From Chitinophagales bacterium (GTDB lineage Bacteria > Bacteroidota > Bacteroidia > Chitinophagales > Chitinophagaceae), in contig JAATGQ010000073.1 in NCBI GenBank assembly GCA_015654595.1, positions 1-64,000 of the forward strand: a stretch of DNA of 64,000 nucleotides, given 5' to 3'. Within the stretch, counting starts at the first letter, position 1. The number at the start of each line of letters is the position of its first letter. The notes under the pieces were generated by a model, which searched no databases, was not told the origin of the DNA, and saw nothing but the letters and a program-made list of their open reading frames with translations. Both the position numbers and the translations under genes were made by a program. Below are positions 1 to 7,943 of this stretch, one piece after another.

Positions 1-45
1 ATAGGGATTTTTGTAAGTCGCTTTTGTGCTGGTTGCATCACTCAG

Positions 46-1245
46 TTAAGTGCCGACACTGACGCCCCATTGCTGGAAAGAAGTAGTGACTCCCGTCTCA
101 TAATTCGTCTTTGCATCTCCCGCATAGTTCCATCCCCGAAGCGCAGCCTCCGCCTTCAGAAACCAAACTTCAGCAGCACTCATCAGCCACTGTGAAGAGG
201 TCTGCTGGAAAAAAGTATTCGTATTAGGACCGGAGAAATTGCCATAGAGATCCTTGGAAACAAATGTGCCAAGGCGGATACCCGCATATGCCCCTGCACC
301 CCGCGAATCGGTCATCTTTTTTCCGGTAACAGGAAGAGCATACACCGGGAGACGGGGGTCCTTGTAACCCGTCATATAGGTCATCAACGCAGCACCCATC
401 CGGCAATCACCATAGGAAGACGCTACCGTCCAGACGTCATTGTTACGGCCGCCGGACTGTTGGAACAACGCATCGTCAGCGGGAGTAGTCATCAAACCAC
501 CTGGGTCTGACAATGCCTTCTCACCCTGCGTTTTTGCAGTAGCCGCGTCAACCTTGGAAATACGCATCGCCAGGCGAAGCCGCAGCGAATTGGCGAATTT
601 CAACCATTGCGCATCCGGCAAAGCGCTTGTGCCATATACGAGATCGCTCGAACCAAGCCAGGAAGCCGCCAGCGTCGTCGTGTCGGCAGGCGTAAGGAGG
701 CTTACCGCCGTATCCAGCTGGGCAAAGAACTCATTGTAGATCTGCTGTTGGCTGTCATAAGGAATGGCGCTGACAGAAGTACCCGCCTTGCTATATGGGA
801 TGGGTCCAAAGCGGTCGGTGACCCTATCCATCGCGTCCACCTGCAGGATCAACGCAATAGCCCACGCATCAGGATGGGTAGAGATCAGATTCAACTGACG
901 CATCTTGGCCACGGGCGCCATAACATAGGTATACTGATCCGTAAACCCACCCGCATCCCAGGAGTCTTTCAAACCATAGTTCTGGTCATTAGAGGCAGTG
1001 AACGGATTCGGAGAAGTATAGTACCCCGCATATCCGTCGCAATTCAGGTTTACTGCCGTCTGATAATTGTGGTAAATATTCTGCGCCATGATCCCAAAGG
1101 TGGACTGCAGCAGAGAAGTCGACTGCTCGTCGTTCAACGCAGCCGGATCGGTATTGTAATCTTTAAAGTTCTTTGTACAGCTGCTGGCTCCGACCACTAA
1201 GAGAGCGGCGGCGGCGGCAGTACGAATATTGAAAGTCATTTTCAT
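46..1245 (-). CDS. SusD/RagB-like (SusD_2) nutrient-binding lipoprotein, probably cut short by a nonsense codon
   Basis: Surface glycan- or nutrient-binding lipoprotein that would cap the SusC channel encoded just upstream (21-bp gap). The start gives a lipoprotein signal with lipobox GASSC (Cys23), followed by the SusD_2-type opening NFKDYNTDPA. The 399-aa frame ends at ...FQQWGVSVGT-TAA, but SusD_2 proteins normally run on for roughly another 80-120 residues. Reading the same frame through the TAA at 46-48 gives LSDATSTKATYKNPY to the window edge, which fits the usual family continuation after QWGV. The TAA most likely replaces a Tyr codon (TAT or TAC). Either the gene is a pseudogene or this is a sequence error; the true 3' end lies left of the window. 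Family assignment is secure, function is inferred. Confidence 0.85.
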   Translation of the reverse strand: MKMTFNIRTAAAAALLVVGASSCTKNFKDYNTDPAALNDEQSTSLLQSTFGIMAQNIYHNYQTAVNLNCDGYAGYYTSPNPFTASNDQNYGLKDSWDAGGFTDQYTYVMAPVAKMRQLNLISTHPDAWAIALILQVDAMDRVTDRFGPIPYSKAGTSVSAIPYDSQQQIYNEFFAQLDTAVSLLTPADTTTLAASWLGSSDLVYGTSALPDAQWLKFANSLRLRLAMRISKVDAATAKTQGEKALSDPGGLMTTPADDALFQQSGGRNNDVWTVASSYGDCRMGAALMTYMTGYKDPRLPVYALPVTGKKMTDSRGAGAYAGIRLGTFVSKDLYGNFSGPNTNTFFQQTSSQWLMSAAEVWFLKAEAALRGWNYAGDAKTNYETGVTTSFQQWGVSVGT

Positions 1246-1266: not shown

Positions 1267-4200
1267 TTAGAAACTAGCAGTTACGCTAAAACCATAATTC
1301 CTCGTTGCAGGCTGATTGAACACATCGACACCCGAAAGACCATTACCCGTAGACATCGTCAGCTCGGGATCGAACGGCGCCTTCTTCGTAAAATACAACA
1401 GGTTACGACCGATCAACGACAGCTTAACGGATTTGAAGAAATTATTGGGGATCGGCAAAAGATAACCCAGATCAGCCTCACGAAGTCTCACAGTCGTTGC
1501 GCTGTAAACATATTCGCCGGAGATACCATTACGACCGCCGATCGCATTATACCAGGTATAAGGATCGATCTTCGAATAAGTCTGAGTAGCGTCCGTGCTG
1601 TTTACGCCATTGATCGCAACAAATCCTTTCTTACGGGCAGCACCCGTAACATCAGATACGCCATATTGATCCATGATCGCCTGGGTCAACGACATGACCT
1701 GACCGCCGAACTTGCCGTCGACCAATACGCCAAGGCTCCAGTTCTTATAGGTAAAGTCGTTTCTCCATCCCAGCTGGAAACGGGGAGCCGCATTGCCAAG
1801 ACGAGTGAAGGTGGAGCTAACCACAGGCTTTAGTTGACCGGTAGTCGCATCCTGCGTGAACTCCTGGCGGCCCTGCGCATCCTTCTGGATCGAGTAGCCA
1901 TAAACATCGCCATATTGCCCGCCTTCCTGCAGGATTGATTCAAAAGCATTATTGCCGGAACCTGTCAGGATGAACTGCTTGATATTGTCCTTGTCATCCA
2001 GCGCTATCACCTTGTTGCGGTTCATGGCGCCGTTGAAACCTGTAGTCCAGGTGAAATCCTTTTGCTTGATCACATCGTATCCAACGGTAAATTCGATACC
2101 GGCATTCTGGATATTACCCGCGTTGACATAACCTGTGCTATACAGAGATGCGGCAACGGGAGTGATCGGGAAGAACTGATTCTTTGTGTTCGTCTTATAA
2201 TAAGTGAATGTAAAGTTCAGACGATTGTTCAGCATACGCCATTCGGTACCAAACTCGATAGAGTTTGTCTTTTCAGGCTTCAGCGTACGGAAAGCAGCTG
2301 CCGTGTTGAACACCAGCTGACCAGAGCTGTTGGCTGTATTCTGAACCGTTGTCAGATAAGGCGGTACTGTGTTACCCACCTGCGCATACGTTCCGCGAAC
2401 CTTACCATAATTGATAAAGGCAGGCAGCTTCAGCAGCTGAGACAGGATCACAGACAAACCAACCGAAGGATAGAAGAAAGACTCGTTTGGCGTAAAGGCC
2501 AGGTTAGAAGACCAGTCGTTTCTGCCGGTCAGCGTCAGATAAACCCAATCGTTAAAGGAGACGTCCAGGTTTCCAAAGACTGACTGGATTTGACTATGAA
2601 CGGGGTAAGCACTCGCATAACCAGGAGACGCGCCGGAATAAGGAAGCGTCGGATTCAGCGTTACCGATGTCTGATTCGGCTGAGAAGCGATGATATTGTT
2701 GATAGAGAACCAGTCTGTCGTAGACAGGTCACCCTGAACGGTACTGCCGGTTACCAGGTTATCCGTGATGCTCGTACCCACAAGGCCATTGACCTTAAAG
2801 GCATTGTGCATCGGGATAGTAAAGTTCGCAATAAAGTCGCCATACTTCTGCTCTGTCGTCTGCGTGCCATACGTCATGTGACCTTTTGCATTGCTGTTGA
2901 AATAAGCATTGGTACCGGAGTGTTCGTCACTCTCATAGGTATCTTCGAAATGGTCGACGTCGCCGCGGGCCTGCAGGCTCAACCAGGGAGCGACCTCGTA
3001 CTTGACGCTTCCCGTGAACAGGATACGGTTACGAACAGCCAGGCTGGGTTCCTGGTTTACGATCCACCAGGGGCTTTGTTGCTCCAGGTCATCGCTGTAA
3101 GGCCAGTTCTGACGGGCATATCCTGTTGCATTGGGATTGAAGTAGTTGTTCTTATAAGTCGAAATATCCTTTCCGCGGGGGAACAGATAAAGACCAATAA
3201 GGGGGTTCTGGTAAATACCCAGGTTAGGGCTGTTGTAGATCTTCTGCGAAACATAGTTCACATTTCCATCCACAGTCAGCTTATCATGCAGGAACTTAGC
3301 TGTTTCACGCAGCGTAAAGTTGTTACGCAGCAGCTTGTTGGTCGGCTCGACACCGGTAGCATCTGTATTGGCATAAGAGAAATAGGTCTGCGCCTTTTCA
3401 TTACCGCCAGCCAGGGAAATAGCATTCGTCCAGTTCATCCCCGTGCGGAAAAAATCGTTCAGATTGTCATGCGCAGCAGTAGGAGCCGTTCCTGTACTGT
3501 CCCAGCTAAAGGGAGAAGTAGGAGTAGACTCGCCATAGCTGTTCTGGAACTTCGGCTTGTAAGCGATCGTCTGAGCAGTAATAGAAGAAGAGAAGTTGAT
3601 CGAAGTCGTACCGGCCTTACCCTTCTTGGTCGTGATCAGGATAACGCCATTCTGAGCCTGGCTTCCGTACAGAGCGGCAGCAGAAGCGCCTTCCAGTACA
3701 GTGATGCTCGCGATATCTTCGGGATTCAGGTTGGAAATACCATCGCCGCCATCAGGATTACCACCGTAAGTACCACCGGGTTGACCATTGGTATTAGAGC
3801 CGTTTGAGATCGGAATACCATCAATTACGTATAAGGGCTGGTTGTTGCCATTAGCCGAACGGTTGCCACGCAGCAATACTTTTGTAGAACCGCCTACGCC
3901 GGAGGCGCTGGGAGTGATCGTCACACCCGCAACCTTACCGTTGAGGCTGTTCATCAGGTTGTCCGTCTTGACAGATGTCAGCTGATCGCCGGTTACCTGC
4001 TGCGTAGCATAGGTCAGCGATTTCTCGCTACGCTTGATACCCAGGGCGGTAATAACGATCTCACCCAGATTTTCCTGGGAAACCGTCAGGGTGATGTCGC
4101 TGGTATTGTCCTTTCCAACTGTCAATTCTTTCGAAGCATACCCGACAGAAGTAAAGACAAGCACCTGGCCGTCTTCCGCTTCGATCTTATATTCGCCCTT

Positions 4201-4728
4201 ATCATTGGATACGGCGCTGCGTTGTGTTCCCTTTACAGTAACGGTAACACCTGCCAGCGGTTCGTTCTTGTCGTTCTTAACCACCCCGCTGACAATGGCA
4301 GCAGGCGTTTCCACGACAACAGCCTTAGGATCAACAGCAGGCGCAGGCGCCGCTTTGATCGCAATGATATACTTCTCAATCGTGTAGGCCAGGTTTTGTT
4401 CTTTCAGGATGGCATCCAGAACTTCCCGGACCTCGACATTCTTCATATCGATATCGATCAGATGCGTAGCATGCAAATCGTTGTACTTGTATAAAAAGGA
4501 GTAATGGCTTTGCCGTTCGATCGTGGCAAAGACCTTTTCAAGGGAAACATTGTGACCGGAGACAGAAACTTTCTGCGCAAGACCTTTTGCAGAAATATTC
4601 ATCACCGAGGCTAATAAAAGGATGGTTGTCAACCTCATAATCAGAAGCGTTTTAGCAAGCAGCCCCCTATCGGACGGAGGGAGCTCTGCCCCGCGCGGCG
4701 GAGGCGTGCAGAGAATCGGAAGTTTCAT
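1267..4728 (-). CDS. SusC/RagA-family TonB-linked outer-membrane transporter with STN signalling domain
   Basis: TonB-dependent outer-membrane channel, about 1153 aa, that imports an oligosaccharide or other nutrient with its SusD partner. I start at MKLPILCTP rather than the ORF-track start because the Chitinophagaceae-type N-terminus begins there. Order: signal segment ending near ISAKGLAQ; STN domain (about residues 60-125) that can touch the FecR anti-sigma; carboxypeptidase-regulatory-like beta-sandwich (SGVVKNDKNEPLAGVTV); plug with LLRGNRSANGNNQPLYVIDG and the SusC hallmark LEGASAAALYGSQAQNGVI; long beta-barrel ending ...GFSVTASF with terminal Phe. The STN domain plus the sigma/FecR genes upstream indicates substrate-triggered surface signalling. 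Substrate unknown. Confidence 0.93.
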   Translation of the reverse strand: MKLPILCTPPPRGAELPPSDRGLLAKTLLIMRLTTILLLASVMNISAKGLAQKVSVSGHNVSLEKVFATIERQSHYSFLYKYNDLHATHLIDIDMKNVEVREVLDAILKEQNLAYTIEKYIIAIKAAPAPAVDPKAVVVETPAAIVSGVVKNDKNEPLAGVTVTVKGTQRSAVSNDKGEYKIEAEDGQVLVFTSVGYASKELTVGKDNTSDITLTVSQENLGEIVITALGIKRSEKSLTYATQQVTGDQLTSVKTDNLMNSLNGKVAGVTITPSASGVGGSTKVLLRGNRSANGNNQPLYVIDGIPISNGSNTNGQPGGTYGGNPDGGDGISNLNPEDIASITVLEGASAAALYGSQAQNGVILITTKKGKAGTTSINFSSSITAQTIAYKPKFQNSYGESTPTSPFSWDSTGTAPTAAHDNLNDFFRTGMNWTNAISLAGGNEKAQTYFSYANTDATGVEPTNKLLRNNFTLRETAKFLHDKLTVDGNVNYVSQKIYNSPNLGIYQNPLIGLYLFPRGKDISTYKNNYFNPNATGYARQNWPYSDDLEQQSPWWIVNQEPSLAVRNRILFTGSVKYEVAPWLSLQARGDVDHFEDTYESDEHSGTNAYFNSNAKGHMTYGTQTTEQKYGDFIANFTIPMHNAFKVNGLVGTSITDNLVTGSTVQGDLSTTDWFSINNIIASQPNQTSVTLNPTLPYSGASPGYASAYPVHSQIQSVFGNLDVSFNDWVYLTLTGRNDWSSNLAFTPNESFFYPSVGLSVILSQLLKLPAFINYGKVRGTYAQVGNTVPPYLTTVQNTANSSGQLVFNTAAAFRTLKPEKTNSIEFGTEWRMLNNRLNFTFTYYKTNTKNQFFPITPVAASLYSTGYVNAGNIQNAGIEFTVGYDVIKQKDFTWTTGFNGAMNRNKVIALDDKDNIKQFILTGSGNNAFESILQEGGQYGDVYGYSIQKDAQGRQEFTQDATTGQLKPVVSSTFTRLGNAAPRFQLGWRNDFTYKNWSLGVLVDGKFGGQVMSLTQAIMDQYGVSDVTGAARKKGFVAINGVNSTDATQTYSKIDPYTWYNAIGGRNGISGEYVYSATTVRLREADLGYLLPIPNNFFKSVKLSLIGRNLLYFTKKAPFDPELTMSTGNGLSGVDVFNQPATRNYGFSVTASF

Positions 4729-4993: not shown

Positions 4994-6181
4994 TTAGCTT
5001 AATACGGTAATCGTCTTTCCTTCGATCTTAAATCTTATCCCGATGAGCTCCATGATGTGCAGCACCTCTCTCACATCGGCAGCCCGGGGAATACGACCTA
5101 CAATCTCATCGGCGGGCGGACCACCCGAATAAACGATATCGACATCATACCAGCGCGCAATCTGCCGCATTACATTCTGGACTGGCGTACGTTCGAAAAA
5201 GTAATAGCCGTCTTTCCAGGCTGTTACAGCCTTGATATTCACCGACTTAATGTCTACTACGCCGCCAGCTCCAAATACCCCCTGCTCACCCGGAGCCAAC
5301 TGCTTTCCTGCGCCCTCACCCAGTTTTACAGCCCCCTGTATAAGGGTCGTTTTCACCGGGCCCTCCTCGTCATAGGCCATGATATTGATATCCGTTCCCA
5401 AAACCTGGGTGGTAGTGTTCTTGGCCTTTACGATAAAGGGCTTTTCAGCCGAAGCCCTGACTTCGAAATAGGCCTCCCCCGTCAGCTGAACTTCACGCGT
5501 AGCAGTTGTAAAAGCCGTCGGGAACCGCAAAGAAGAAGCCGCATCCAGCCACACTTTGGTTCCGTCGGGTAAGATGATCTGGTACTGACCGCCCCTGGGC
5601 GTAGCAATGGTATTGTACATCGGCCCCTGACCACTGGCTCCTCCGCCCGCATAAGCCAGCTGACCGCCGTCCAGCTTGATGACCTTGGTATTGCCCTGCT
5701 GCCCGATAACTCCATTGTGCGCATCGTCCAAAAGGATCTGCTGCCCGTTGGCCAACGTAAGAATTGCCTTGTTCGTTCCAGGATGAATACTGTCTTTTTT
5801 CGGAGCAGGAACGGACTCCTGCGCAACAGGAGCAGGCTTCCGGTGAAGAAGAAGATAATCAGCCCCGCCGACAACCGCCAAAAGAATAACAGCCGCCGCT
5901 GCCATCCGCCGGTTGATCGGACGAAGAATAGCCCGGCTCGATCGGGAAGAACGGAACCCGGTCTGACGATCTACGTTGTATATGTTGTGGAGAACAGCGT
6001 CCCATTCCTGGTCGGGAACCGCCGCAAAAGAAGGAGCTGAAGGAAATTGAGCCGCCATTGCCTCCTGAATAAGACTCTCGTATTCAGGATCTTGCAGAAT
6101 AGACTGCCACTCTTCCTGCTCAGCCTCGGTAAGCAGGGAGTGGACAAAACGATCCAGTAAATAAGCAATCCGTGACTGCAT
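4994..6181 (-). CDS. FecR-family anti-sigma factor (FecR + DUF4974)
   Basis: Inner-membrane anti-sigma factor, about 395 aa, that would hold the adjacent ECF sigma factor until the STN domain of the SusC transporter signals. I chose MQSRIAYLL as start because AGGAGG lies just before it; the longer ORF would overlap the sigma gene. Cytoplasmic N-terminus of about 90 residues, one membrane segment (about 93-112, AAAAVILLAVVGGADYLLL), periplasmic FecR domain (PRGGQYQIILPDGTKVWLDA), then a DUF4974-like C-terminus (TPVQNVMRQIARWYDVDIVY). Order sigma-FecR-SusC-SusD is the standard transenvelope signalling layout in Bacteroidota. Confidence 0.93.
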   Translation of the reverse strand: MQSRIAYLLDRFVHSLLTEAEQEEWQSILQDPEYESLIQEAMAAQFPSAPSFAAVPDQEWDAVLHNIYNVDRQTGFRSSRSSRAILRPINRRMAAAAVILLAVVGGADYLLLHRKPAPVAQESVPAPKKDSIHPGTNKAILTLANGQQILLDDAHNGVIGQQGNTKVIKLDGGQLAYAGGGASGQGPMYNTIATPRGGQYQIILPDGTKVWLDAASSLRFPTAFTTATREVQLTGEAYFEVRASAEKPFIVKAKNTTTQVLGTDINIMAYDEEGPVKTTLIQGAVKLGEGAGKQLAPGEQGVFGAGGVVDIKSVNIKAVTAWKDGYYFFERTPVQNVMRQIARWYDVDIVYSGGPPADEIVGRIPRAADVREVLHIMELIGIRFKIEGKTITVLS

Positions 6182-6308
6182 ATGGCGAACCTCCTGCATT
6201 ATTAGAACACCCAAAACAAAAAAAGGACTACTGACTTTTAACTTTTTTTTAAACCTGCCCGGATGGGCATCCGCAATTGTGCGACAGGCTCTTACAGGGG
6301 TGCAAAAA

Positions 6309-6878
6309 CTACCACTCATGCCCTTTGGAGGCAAGATACTTTCTGATATATTTCAGGCTGCTGACCAGAGAATTCTTAACCGTATTGGATGAGATACGCA
6401 ACATTACGGCAATTTCAGGGATCTTCATCCCTTCATCACGGCTCATTTGATAGATCCGCCTGCGACGGGATGGTAATTTGTTTACCGCCTCCGAAATAAG
6501 CCGGTTGATCTCATTCAAACGAATAGTGTGTATAGTTGACATATCCTCTTCGGATAATCGACCTGCTTTTTCCAATTGCGCCAGCCCGTTAGCCCGAAGA
6601 CTCTGCTTTTTCAAATACTTATAACACTCGTTGGCAGCAATAGTATAGATCCATGCCCTTGGCGACTCGACCTCTTCCAGCTTATCCCGGCTCATCCATA
6701 GCCGCATAAAGGTCTCCTGGATGATCTCCTTGGTATCCTCTGCCGACTTTGTAAGCCTGGATATAAAAGGCTTCAGACTCCCAAGGTAAGCGTAGAACAA
6801 GCTGGAAAACGCAGCTTCGTTCCCTTGAGCTATTTGCTGTAAAAGGGCCTTTTCGTCTTGCACCAATGGATCCGGCAA
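6309..6878 (-). CDS. ECF (extracytoplasmic-function) RNA polymerase sigma factor
   Basis: Sigma-70 family ECF factor, 189 aa, expected to transcribe the SusC/SusD genes when released by FecR. Region 2 includes DTKEIIQETFMRLW and SPRAWIYTIAANECYKYLKK; region 4 is a helix-turn-helix near KIPEIAVMLRISSNTVKNSL. No ATG opens the frame: the track start at 6878 is TTG, with another TTG and a GTG a few codons inside, so the exact start is uncertain. It is followed after about 127 bp by the FecR gene, on the same strand. Bacteroidota ECF sigma linked to SusC signalling; target promoters cannot be read from this window. Confidence 0.92.
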   Translation of the reverse strand: MPDPLVQDEKALLQQIAQGNEAAFSSLFYAYLGSLKPFISRLTKSAEDTKEIIQETFMRLWMSRDKLEEVESPRAWIYTIAANECYKYLKKQSLRANGLAQLEKAGRLSEEDMSTIHTIRLNEINRLISEAVNKLPSRRRRIYQMSRDEGMKIPEIAVMLRISSNTVKNSLVSSLKYIRKYLASKGHEW

Positions 6879-6965: not shown

Positions 6966-7943
6966 TTATCCAACAGCCTCCTTGTTGTATTTTGTTCTGT
7001 ATTCAATGGGAGACATCGAAGTTACTTTTTTGAAAATATCCCGAAAAGCTTTTGTATCATTGTATCCGACCTCGTACATAACCTCTCCTATCGTTTTGCG
7101 ACTGAGTTCTAACTGCCGTTTGGCCGCTTCGATCTTGACGCGCTGCCAATACTCCAGAATAGTATTATTCGTCGCTTTTTTAAACCTCCTCTCGAAAGTT
7201 CGTCGTGCGATGCTAAACTTCTCGGCAAGTTCATCCACTGACCATTTTTCGTGGTAATTGGTCTCTATAAATTCCTGGACGGCCGCAATCTCCTGGTCGT
7301 TGTGTTCCTTCTGGCCCTTAAAAACGGTGAAGGGACTCTGGCTGGACCGCTCCATATCCAGGACGAATAGCTTGGCCGTATAGATCGCGATCTCCCGGGT
7401 GGTATATTTCTCCACCAGGTAGAGCAGTAAATTCCAGTAAGAGTTGGCGCCGCCGCTCGTGTAAATGCCGCTTTGTTCTGTCACGATCCGGTCGTCGGTC
7501 AATTCGATATCCGGATACATGGTTCTGAATTCGTTGGCGAAAAGCCAATGCGTACTGCAGGCCTTTCCCTTTAAAAGTCCTGATTCCGCCAGCAGAAAAG
7601 CGCCGACACAAAGACTGGCTACTTCAGCGCCCGCCTTATACCATTTGTTGATCCAGGGTATCATTTCCTTATTCATCCGGACCGCATGGGTCATGTTGCC
7701 GCTAAGCGCCGGTATGATGACCAGATCCGGCTTTCGGGCCGTACTAAGCAAGGCGTCAACGTGCACGGAAAAAATGCCATTCGTCACCTTGACTTCCGGG
7801 GTCATCCCTACCAACTGGACGTTGAACAACGGATCACGTCCCGTGGCTTTTAAAAATTCATTGACGGCGGTAAAAACATAACGAGGGTCGGCAACGGCTT
7901 CTATTATGGCAGTCTCTGGGACCAGAATGGCAACATTCTTCAT
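6966..7943 (-). CDS. GlxA-family transcriptional regulator (DJ-1/PfpI domain + AraC HTH)
   Basis: DNA-binding regulator of 325 aa with a DJ-1/PfpI-like amidotransferase-type fold at the N-terminus (about 1-190; VASLCVGAFLLAESGLLKG around the nucleophile-elbow Cys) and an AraC-type double helix-turn-helix at the C-terminus (about 225-320; WSVDELAEKFSIARRTFERR and IGEVMYEVGYNDTKAFRDIF). This domain order defines the GlxA family. It is divergent from the VOC gene across about 210 bp, so that gene is a plausible target, but no operator was recognised. Effector unknown. Confidence 0.92.
   Translation of the reverse strand: MKNVAILVPETAIIEAVADPRYVFTAVNEFLKATGRDPLFNVQLVGMTPEVKVTNGIFSVHVDALLSTARKPDLVIIPALSGNMTHAVRMNKEMIPWINKWYKAGAEVASLCVGAFLLAESGLLKGKACSTHWLFANEFRTMYPDIELTDDRIVTEQSGIYTSGGANSYWNLLLYLVEKYTTREIAIYTAKLFVLDMERSSQSPFTVFKGQKEHNDQEIAAVQEFIETNYHEKWSVDELAEKFSIARRTFERRFKKATNNTILEYWQRVKIEAAKRQLELSRKTIGEVMYEVGYNDTKAFRDIFKKVTSMSPIEYRTKYNKEAVG

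Follow-up and report, generated by a model that had tools for sequence, protein, structure and literature searches.

The closest described counterpart of the locus considered here is the SusCD nutrient-uptake locus of Bacteroidota that is controlled by an ECF sigma factor and a FecR protein, with the genes in the order sigma factor, FecR, STN-bearing SusC and SusD. The same order is found here, and all four Pfam identities are present; here, however, the SusD frame is stopped by a TAA at the tip of a contig, and the remainder of the locus does not lie on that contig. In Bacteroides fragilis, DNA inversion is known to switch phase-variable loci for outer-membrane proteins (PMC4747536). The window, meaning the whole stretch of DNA that we analysed (64,000 nucleotides), comprises bases 1-64000 of contig C76, which belongs to a draft genome of 265 contigs that is 87% complete. 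The features of the locus are collected in Table 1.

Table 1. Features of the susD end of contig C76, in window coordinates
Feature	Position	Strand	Remarks	Basis
15 post-stop codons, same frame, homologue-like	1..45	(-)	up to end of contig C76	
In-frame TAA	46..48	(-)	Tyr in 42/49 homologues	homologue alignment
susD-like gene	49..1245	(-)	399 codons before stop; ~135 C-terminal codons short vs homologues	ORF, Pfam, alignment
34 bases identical to first 34 bases of contig C6	372..405	(-)	register of susD codons 281-292	
SusC, TonB-dependent receptor with STN domain, intact	1267..4728	(-)		Pfam, orthologue alignment
FecR-type anti-sigma protein, intact	4994..6289	(-)		Pfam, orthologue alignment
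ECF sigma factor, intact	6309..6878	(-)		Pfam, orthologue alignment
AraC-type regulator	6966..7943	(-)	syntenic marker for C76 side of locus	synteny

The membership of the interrupted protein in the SusD-like families is clear, with scores of 334 and 231 bits for PF12741 and PF12771 against a cut-off of 27. The portion before the stop covers profile positions 1-363 of the 495 in PF12741 (E 2.3e-99) and 8-341 of the 415 in PF12771, and its N-terminus, MKMTFNIRTAAAAALLVVGASSC, aligns with the homologues and carries a predicted lipoprotein signal, with a Cys following a hydrophobic stretch. The C-terminal part of the domain is incomplete: PF12741 is covered to position 363, after which come the stop and then the end of the contig. 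Because the profile coverage ends early, approximately the C-terminal quarter is missing from the truncated protein. The first-pass annotation had described the sigma factor, the FecR protein and SusC as looking intact, and indeed all three are complete by Pfam and by alignment to their orthologues.

The same annotation proposed that a TAA interrupts the susD frame, that SusD-like sequence resumes in this frame beyond it, and that the stop lies one base from a Tyr codon; all of this is borne out by the reading of the frame and by an alignment of 49 SusD homologues from related genomes. The open reading frame runs on the minus strand from 1245 to 46, with the TAA at 48-46, and when it is read past the stop the susD frame gives LSDATSTKATYKNPY down to window base 1. 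These codons resemble the homologues, for example GVSAGGYLSDATSKQADYVDP in G016, and the match indicates that the in-frame continuation is not due to chance. In the alignment column of the stop, the homologues with Tyr carry TAT or TAC and the rest have another residue or a gap. The alignment had been suggested as a check on whether SusD proteins naturally end at this point: none of the 49 does so, and all extend 100-144 residues further. Hence, the stop is absent from the homologues, as is expected of a pseudogene formed through nonsense mutation. A SusD homologue in G004 (L014, G004:C535) contains a single in-frame TAA in a frame that is otherwise full-length.

Contig C76 ends at window base 1, only 45 bases from the nonsense codon, and the 60-base feature of the first-pass annotation is therefore the tip of a contig, a fact that could not be seen from the letters of the window. 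One pair of contigs in the draft shows an end-to-start overlap of exactly 141 identical bases, the pattern expected when a de Bruijn assembler has run up to a k of 141, and read support is usually lowest within the terminal k-mer of a contig. From this overlap, the susD stop would fall within the terminal k-mer (~141) of C76. Two further pairs of contigs, the starts of C14 and C51 and the end of C37 with the start of C56, agree over exactly 19 bases at both edges, an indication that they are neighbours left unjoined in the assembly. The draft has no other copy of the first 90 bases of C76, and a search across it for the continuation of the C76 susD gene returned only contig C6, at 62-68% identity, and more distant paralogues. 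A scan of genome contigs confirmed no close relatives of the SusD protein.

Another contig of this draft, C6, begins inside a susD gene, and its first 34 bases are those of window positions 405-372, a 34-mer that has only two copies in the draft. Downstream of these common bases the two contigs share only ~66% identity. C6 continues with a SusD C-terminus without any stop and then a convergent gene that was named bestrophin-like by inspection. If codons 1-280 of C76 are read into C6, the result is a stop-free frame of 532 codons, and the orthologues have 527-537. The relative G023 has a similar counterpart of the 34-base stretch, with 5 mismatches. Thus, the draft contains a conflicting version of the segment elsewhere while the feature in question sits at a contig tip, a combination that is characteristic of an assembly artefact or a strain mixture.

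Comparison of gene order with relatives places the two contigs on either side of the same gene. In G336 and G337 the AraC regulator is followed, after one or two intervening genes, by the sigma factor, FecR, SusC, SusD and bestrophin, and G016 has the AraC regulator, SusC, SusD and bestrophin; in the source draft, C76 carries the genes on the AraC side, and C6 carries the bestrophin gene. The susD fragments of C76 and C6 have one and the same gene as their best match in each of five close relatives. It is therefore parsimonious to regard C76 and C6 as the two sides of one susD gene that was broken in the assembly. On this reading, in which a single SusD joins both flanks as it does in three relatives, codons 293-399 are present in the draft in two incompatible versions, one of them free of stops. 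The syntenic locus of G016 (L045:4045-10105) is without sigma factor and FecR genes, and its SusC is without the STN region; G336 and G337, unlike G016, keep the sigma factor and FecR, an apparent case of loss or gain of the signalling module.

Phylogenetic reconstruction shows that the two versions have different affinities. In the tree of codons 293-399, the C76 version groups with G023 (support 100/98) and is not the sister of the C6 version (AU p = 0.006), and the 5' part of the C76 susD gene also groups with G023, although weakly (support 77/85). C76 may therefore represent one coherent gene and C6 another, which makes a mixture of strains or a second, tandem SusCD pair possible. We also considered a mosaic origin of the C76 tip: a site-pattern test hinted at a shift towards G023, with p values that varied between 0.003 and 0.55 according to what was compared, but we do not claim a mosaic because the trees also place the 5' part weakly with G023.

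Lone stops are also found elsewhere in the draft. A search for cut genes based on codon usage alone was too weak, and we replaced it with a hexamer filter that picks out two coding segments with a lone stop between them, followed by inspection, over ~1.07 Mb of the draft. The filter returned 37 candidates, eight of which, when inspected, looked like a single gene interrupted by a single codon. Among the cut genes are those for PriA, an FtsX-type permease, a GH31 enzyme with PA14 and an AsmA-like protein, together with two SusC genes, a SusE-like protein and an IS66 transposase (PriA, FtsX, GH31/PA14 and SusE confirmed by Pfam, the others named by inspection). Some of the other candidates, such as C2:3634 and C30:838, were rejected as simply adjacent genes. 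The same filter applied to 0.4 Mb of the relative G009 gave eight candidates, none of which was a cut gene, as judged by eye in this small sample. The scatter of lone nonsense codons over the draft indicates that they are not particular to SusD. They comprise TAA, TAG and TGA and are few in number; reassignment of a stop codon is ruled out because all three occur, and no particular stop is regularly read as one residue. The PriA helicase frame has its lone TAA in mid-contig (G000:C62:9322-9324, L151), as does a paralogous SusC whose SusD partner is intact (G000:C31:30766-30768, L046:8767), and another SusC near the other end of C76 has a lone TAG (G000:C76:74362-74364, L197:10362).

Taken together, the TAA close to the end of C76, the in-register and stop-free C6, the single SusD of the relatives and the scattered lone stops favor an origin in the draft. 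The TAA is present in the deposited sequence but in our judgment probably reflects the assembly, as an error in a thin tip or as a dead-end branch from a minor strain or a paralogue; its most likely origin is a mistake of assembly or of sequencing, or a branch from a minor strain, at the tip of the contig. Under this scenario, an ordinary sigma/FecR-controlled SusCD locus would have broken in the middle of susD during assembly, and the thinly supported tip of C76 would carry either an error or a branch, from a minor strain or a paralogue, that leads no further. We infer that the organism has an intact susD gene, of which the C76 tip is the faulty or minor version. Some points count against this reading. 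Only its position marks the tip as faulty, because both the 399 codons and the 15 post-stop codons look like normal coding sequence, and over codons 293-399 the versions on C76 and C6 are not sisters, with the 5' part of C76 again weakly with G023.

A real nonsense mutation that arose recently in the susD gene of this strain, leaving a truncated and probably non-functional lipoprotein of 399 residues beside intact signalling genes and SusC, would account for a TAA that lies in frame and one base from a conserved Tyr codon, and susD has no other damage, as expected of a young mutation; the homologue in G004 likewise has one in-frame TAA. We nevertheless regard it as unlikely, given that the codon sits at a contig tip, that C6 carries the same segment without a stop, and that lone stops are scattered through the draft, PriA included. 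The different lineages of codons 293-399 could also arise if two tandem SusCD pairs lay between the AraC regulator and bestrophin, the C76 pair with a decaying susD and the second susD ending on C6, and the continuation of the C76 version was indeed not found in the draft. No second close SusC was found in the draft, however, close relatives have one SusD at the corresponding place, and the 34 identical bases at the start of C6 would have to be a coincidence or a gene-conversion tract, so that this arrangement seems quite improbable. We give hardly any credence to a population with alternative SusD 3' halves that recombine at the conserved 34-base stretch, with one half silenced by the nonsense codon: such exchange would fit a common in-register 34-mer with two different downstream halves, and the phase variation by DNA inversion described for B. 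fragilis outer-membrane loci (PMC4747536) offers a precedent, but the draft has just two copies of the 34-mer and lacks additional cassettes, and the boundary falls at the contig end. A dedicated recombination site is not needed, because the stretch encodes a conserved segment that is similar in G023.

The proposal that the binding lipoprotein alone is lost or truncated is thus not established, in view of the contig tip, the stop-free version on C6 and the other lone stops, and the loss of the lipoprotein should not be inferred from the present sequence. More generally, a nonsense codon read within a few dozen bases of the end of a contig in a draft is not sufficient reason to assume gene loss. 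If the mutation were real, it would represent the ordinary loss of one among the many SusD genes of this genome.

Compared with known cases, the locus resembles a recent pseudogene formed by a single nonsense mutation in having one in-frame stop within an otherwise intact coding sequence, but here the stop lies within the terminal 48 bases of a contig, and a stop-free version exists elsewhere in the draft. With artefacts at contig ends, or strain mixtures in fragmented drafts, it shares the position at the tip, the two incompatible versions and the lone stops, and it is a probable case of this kind.
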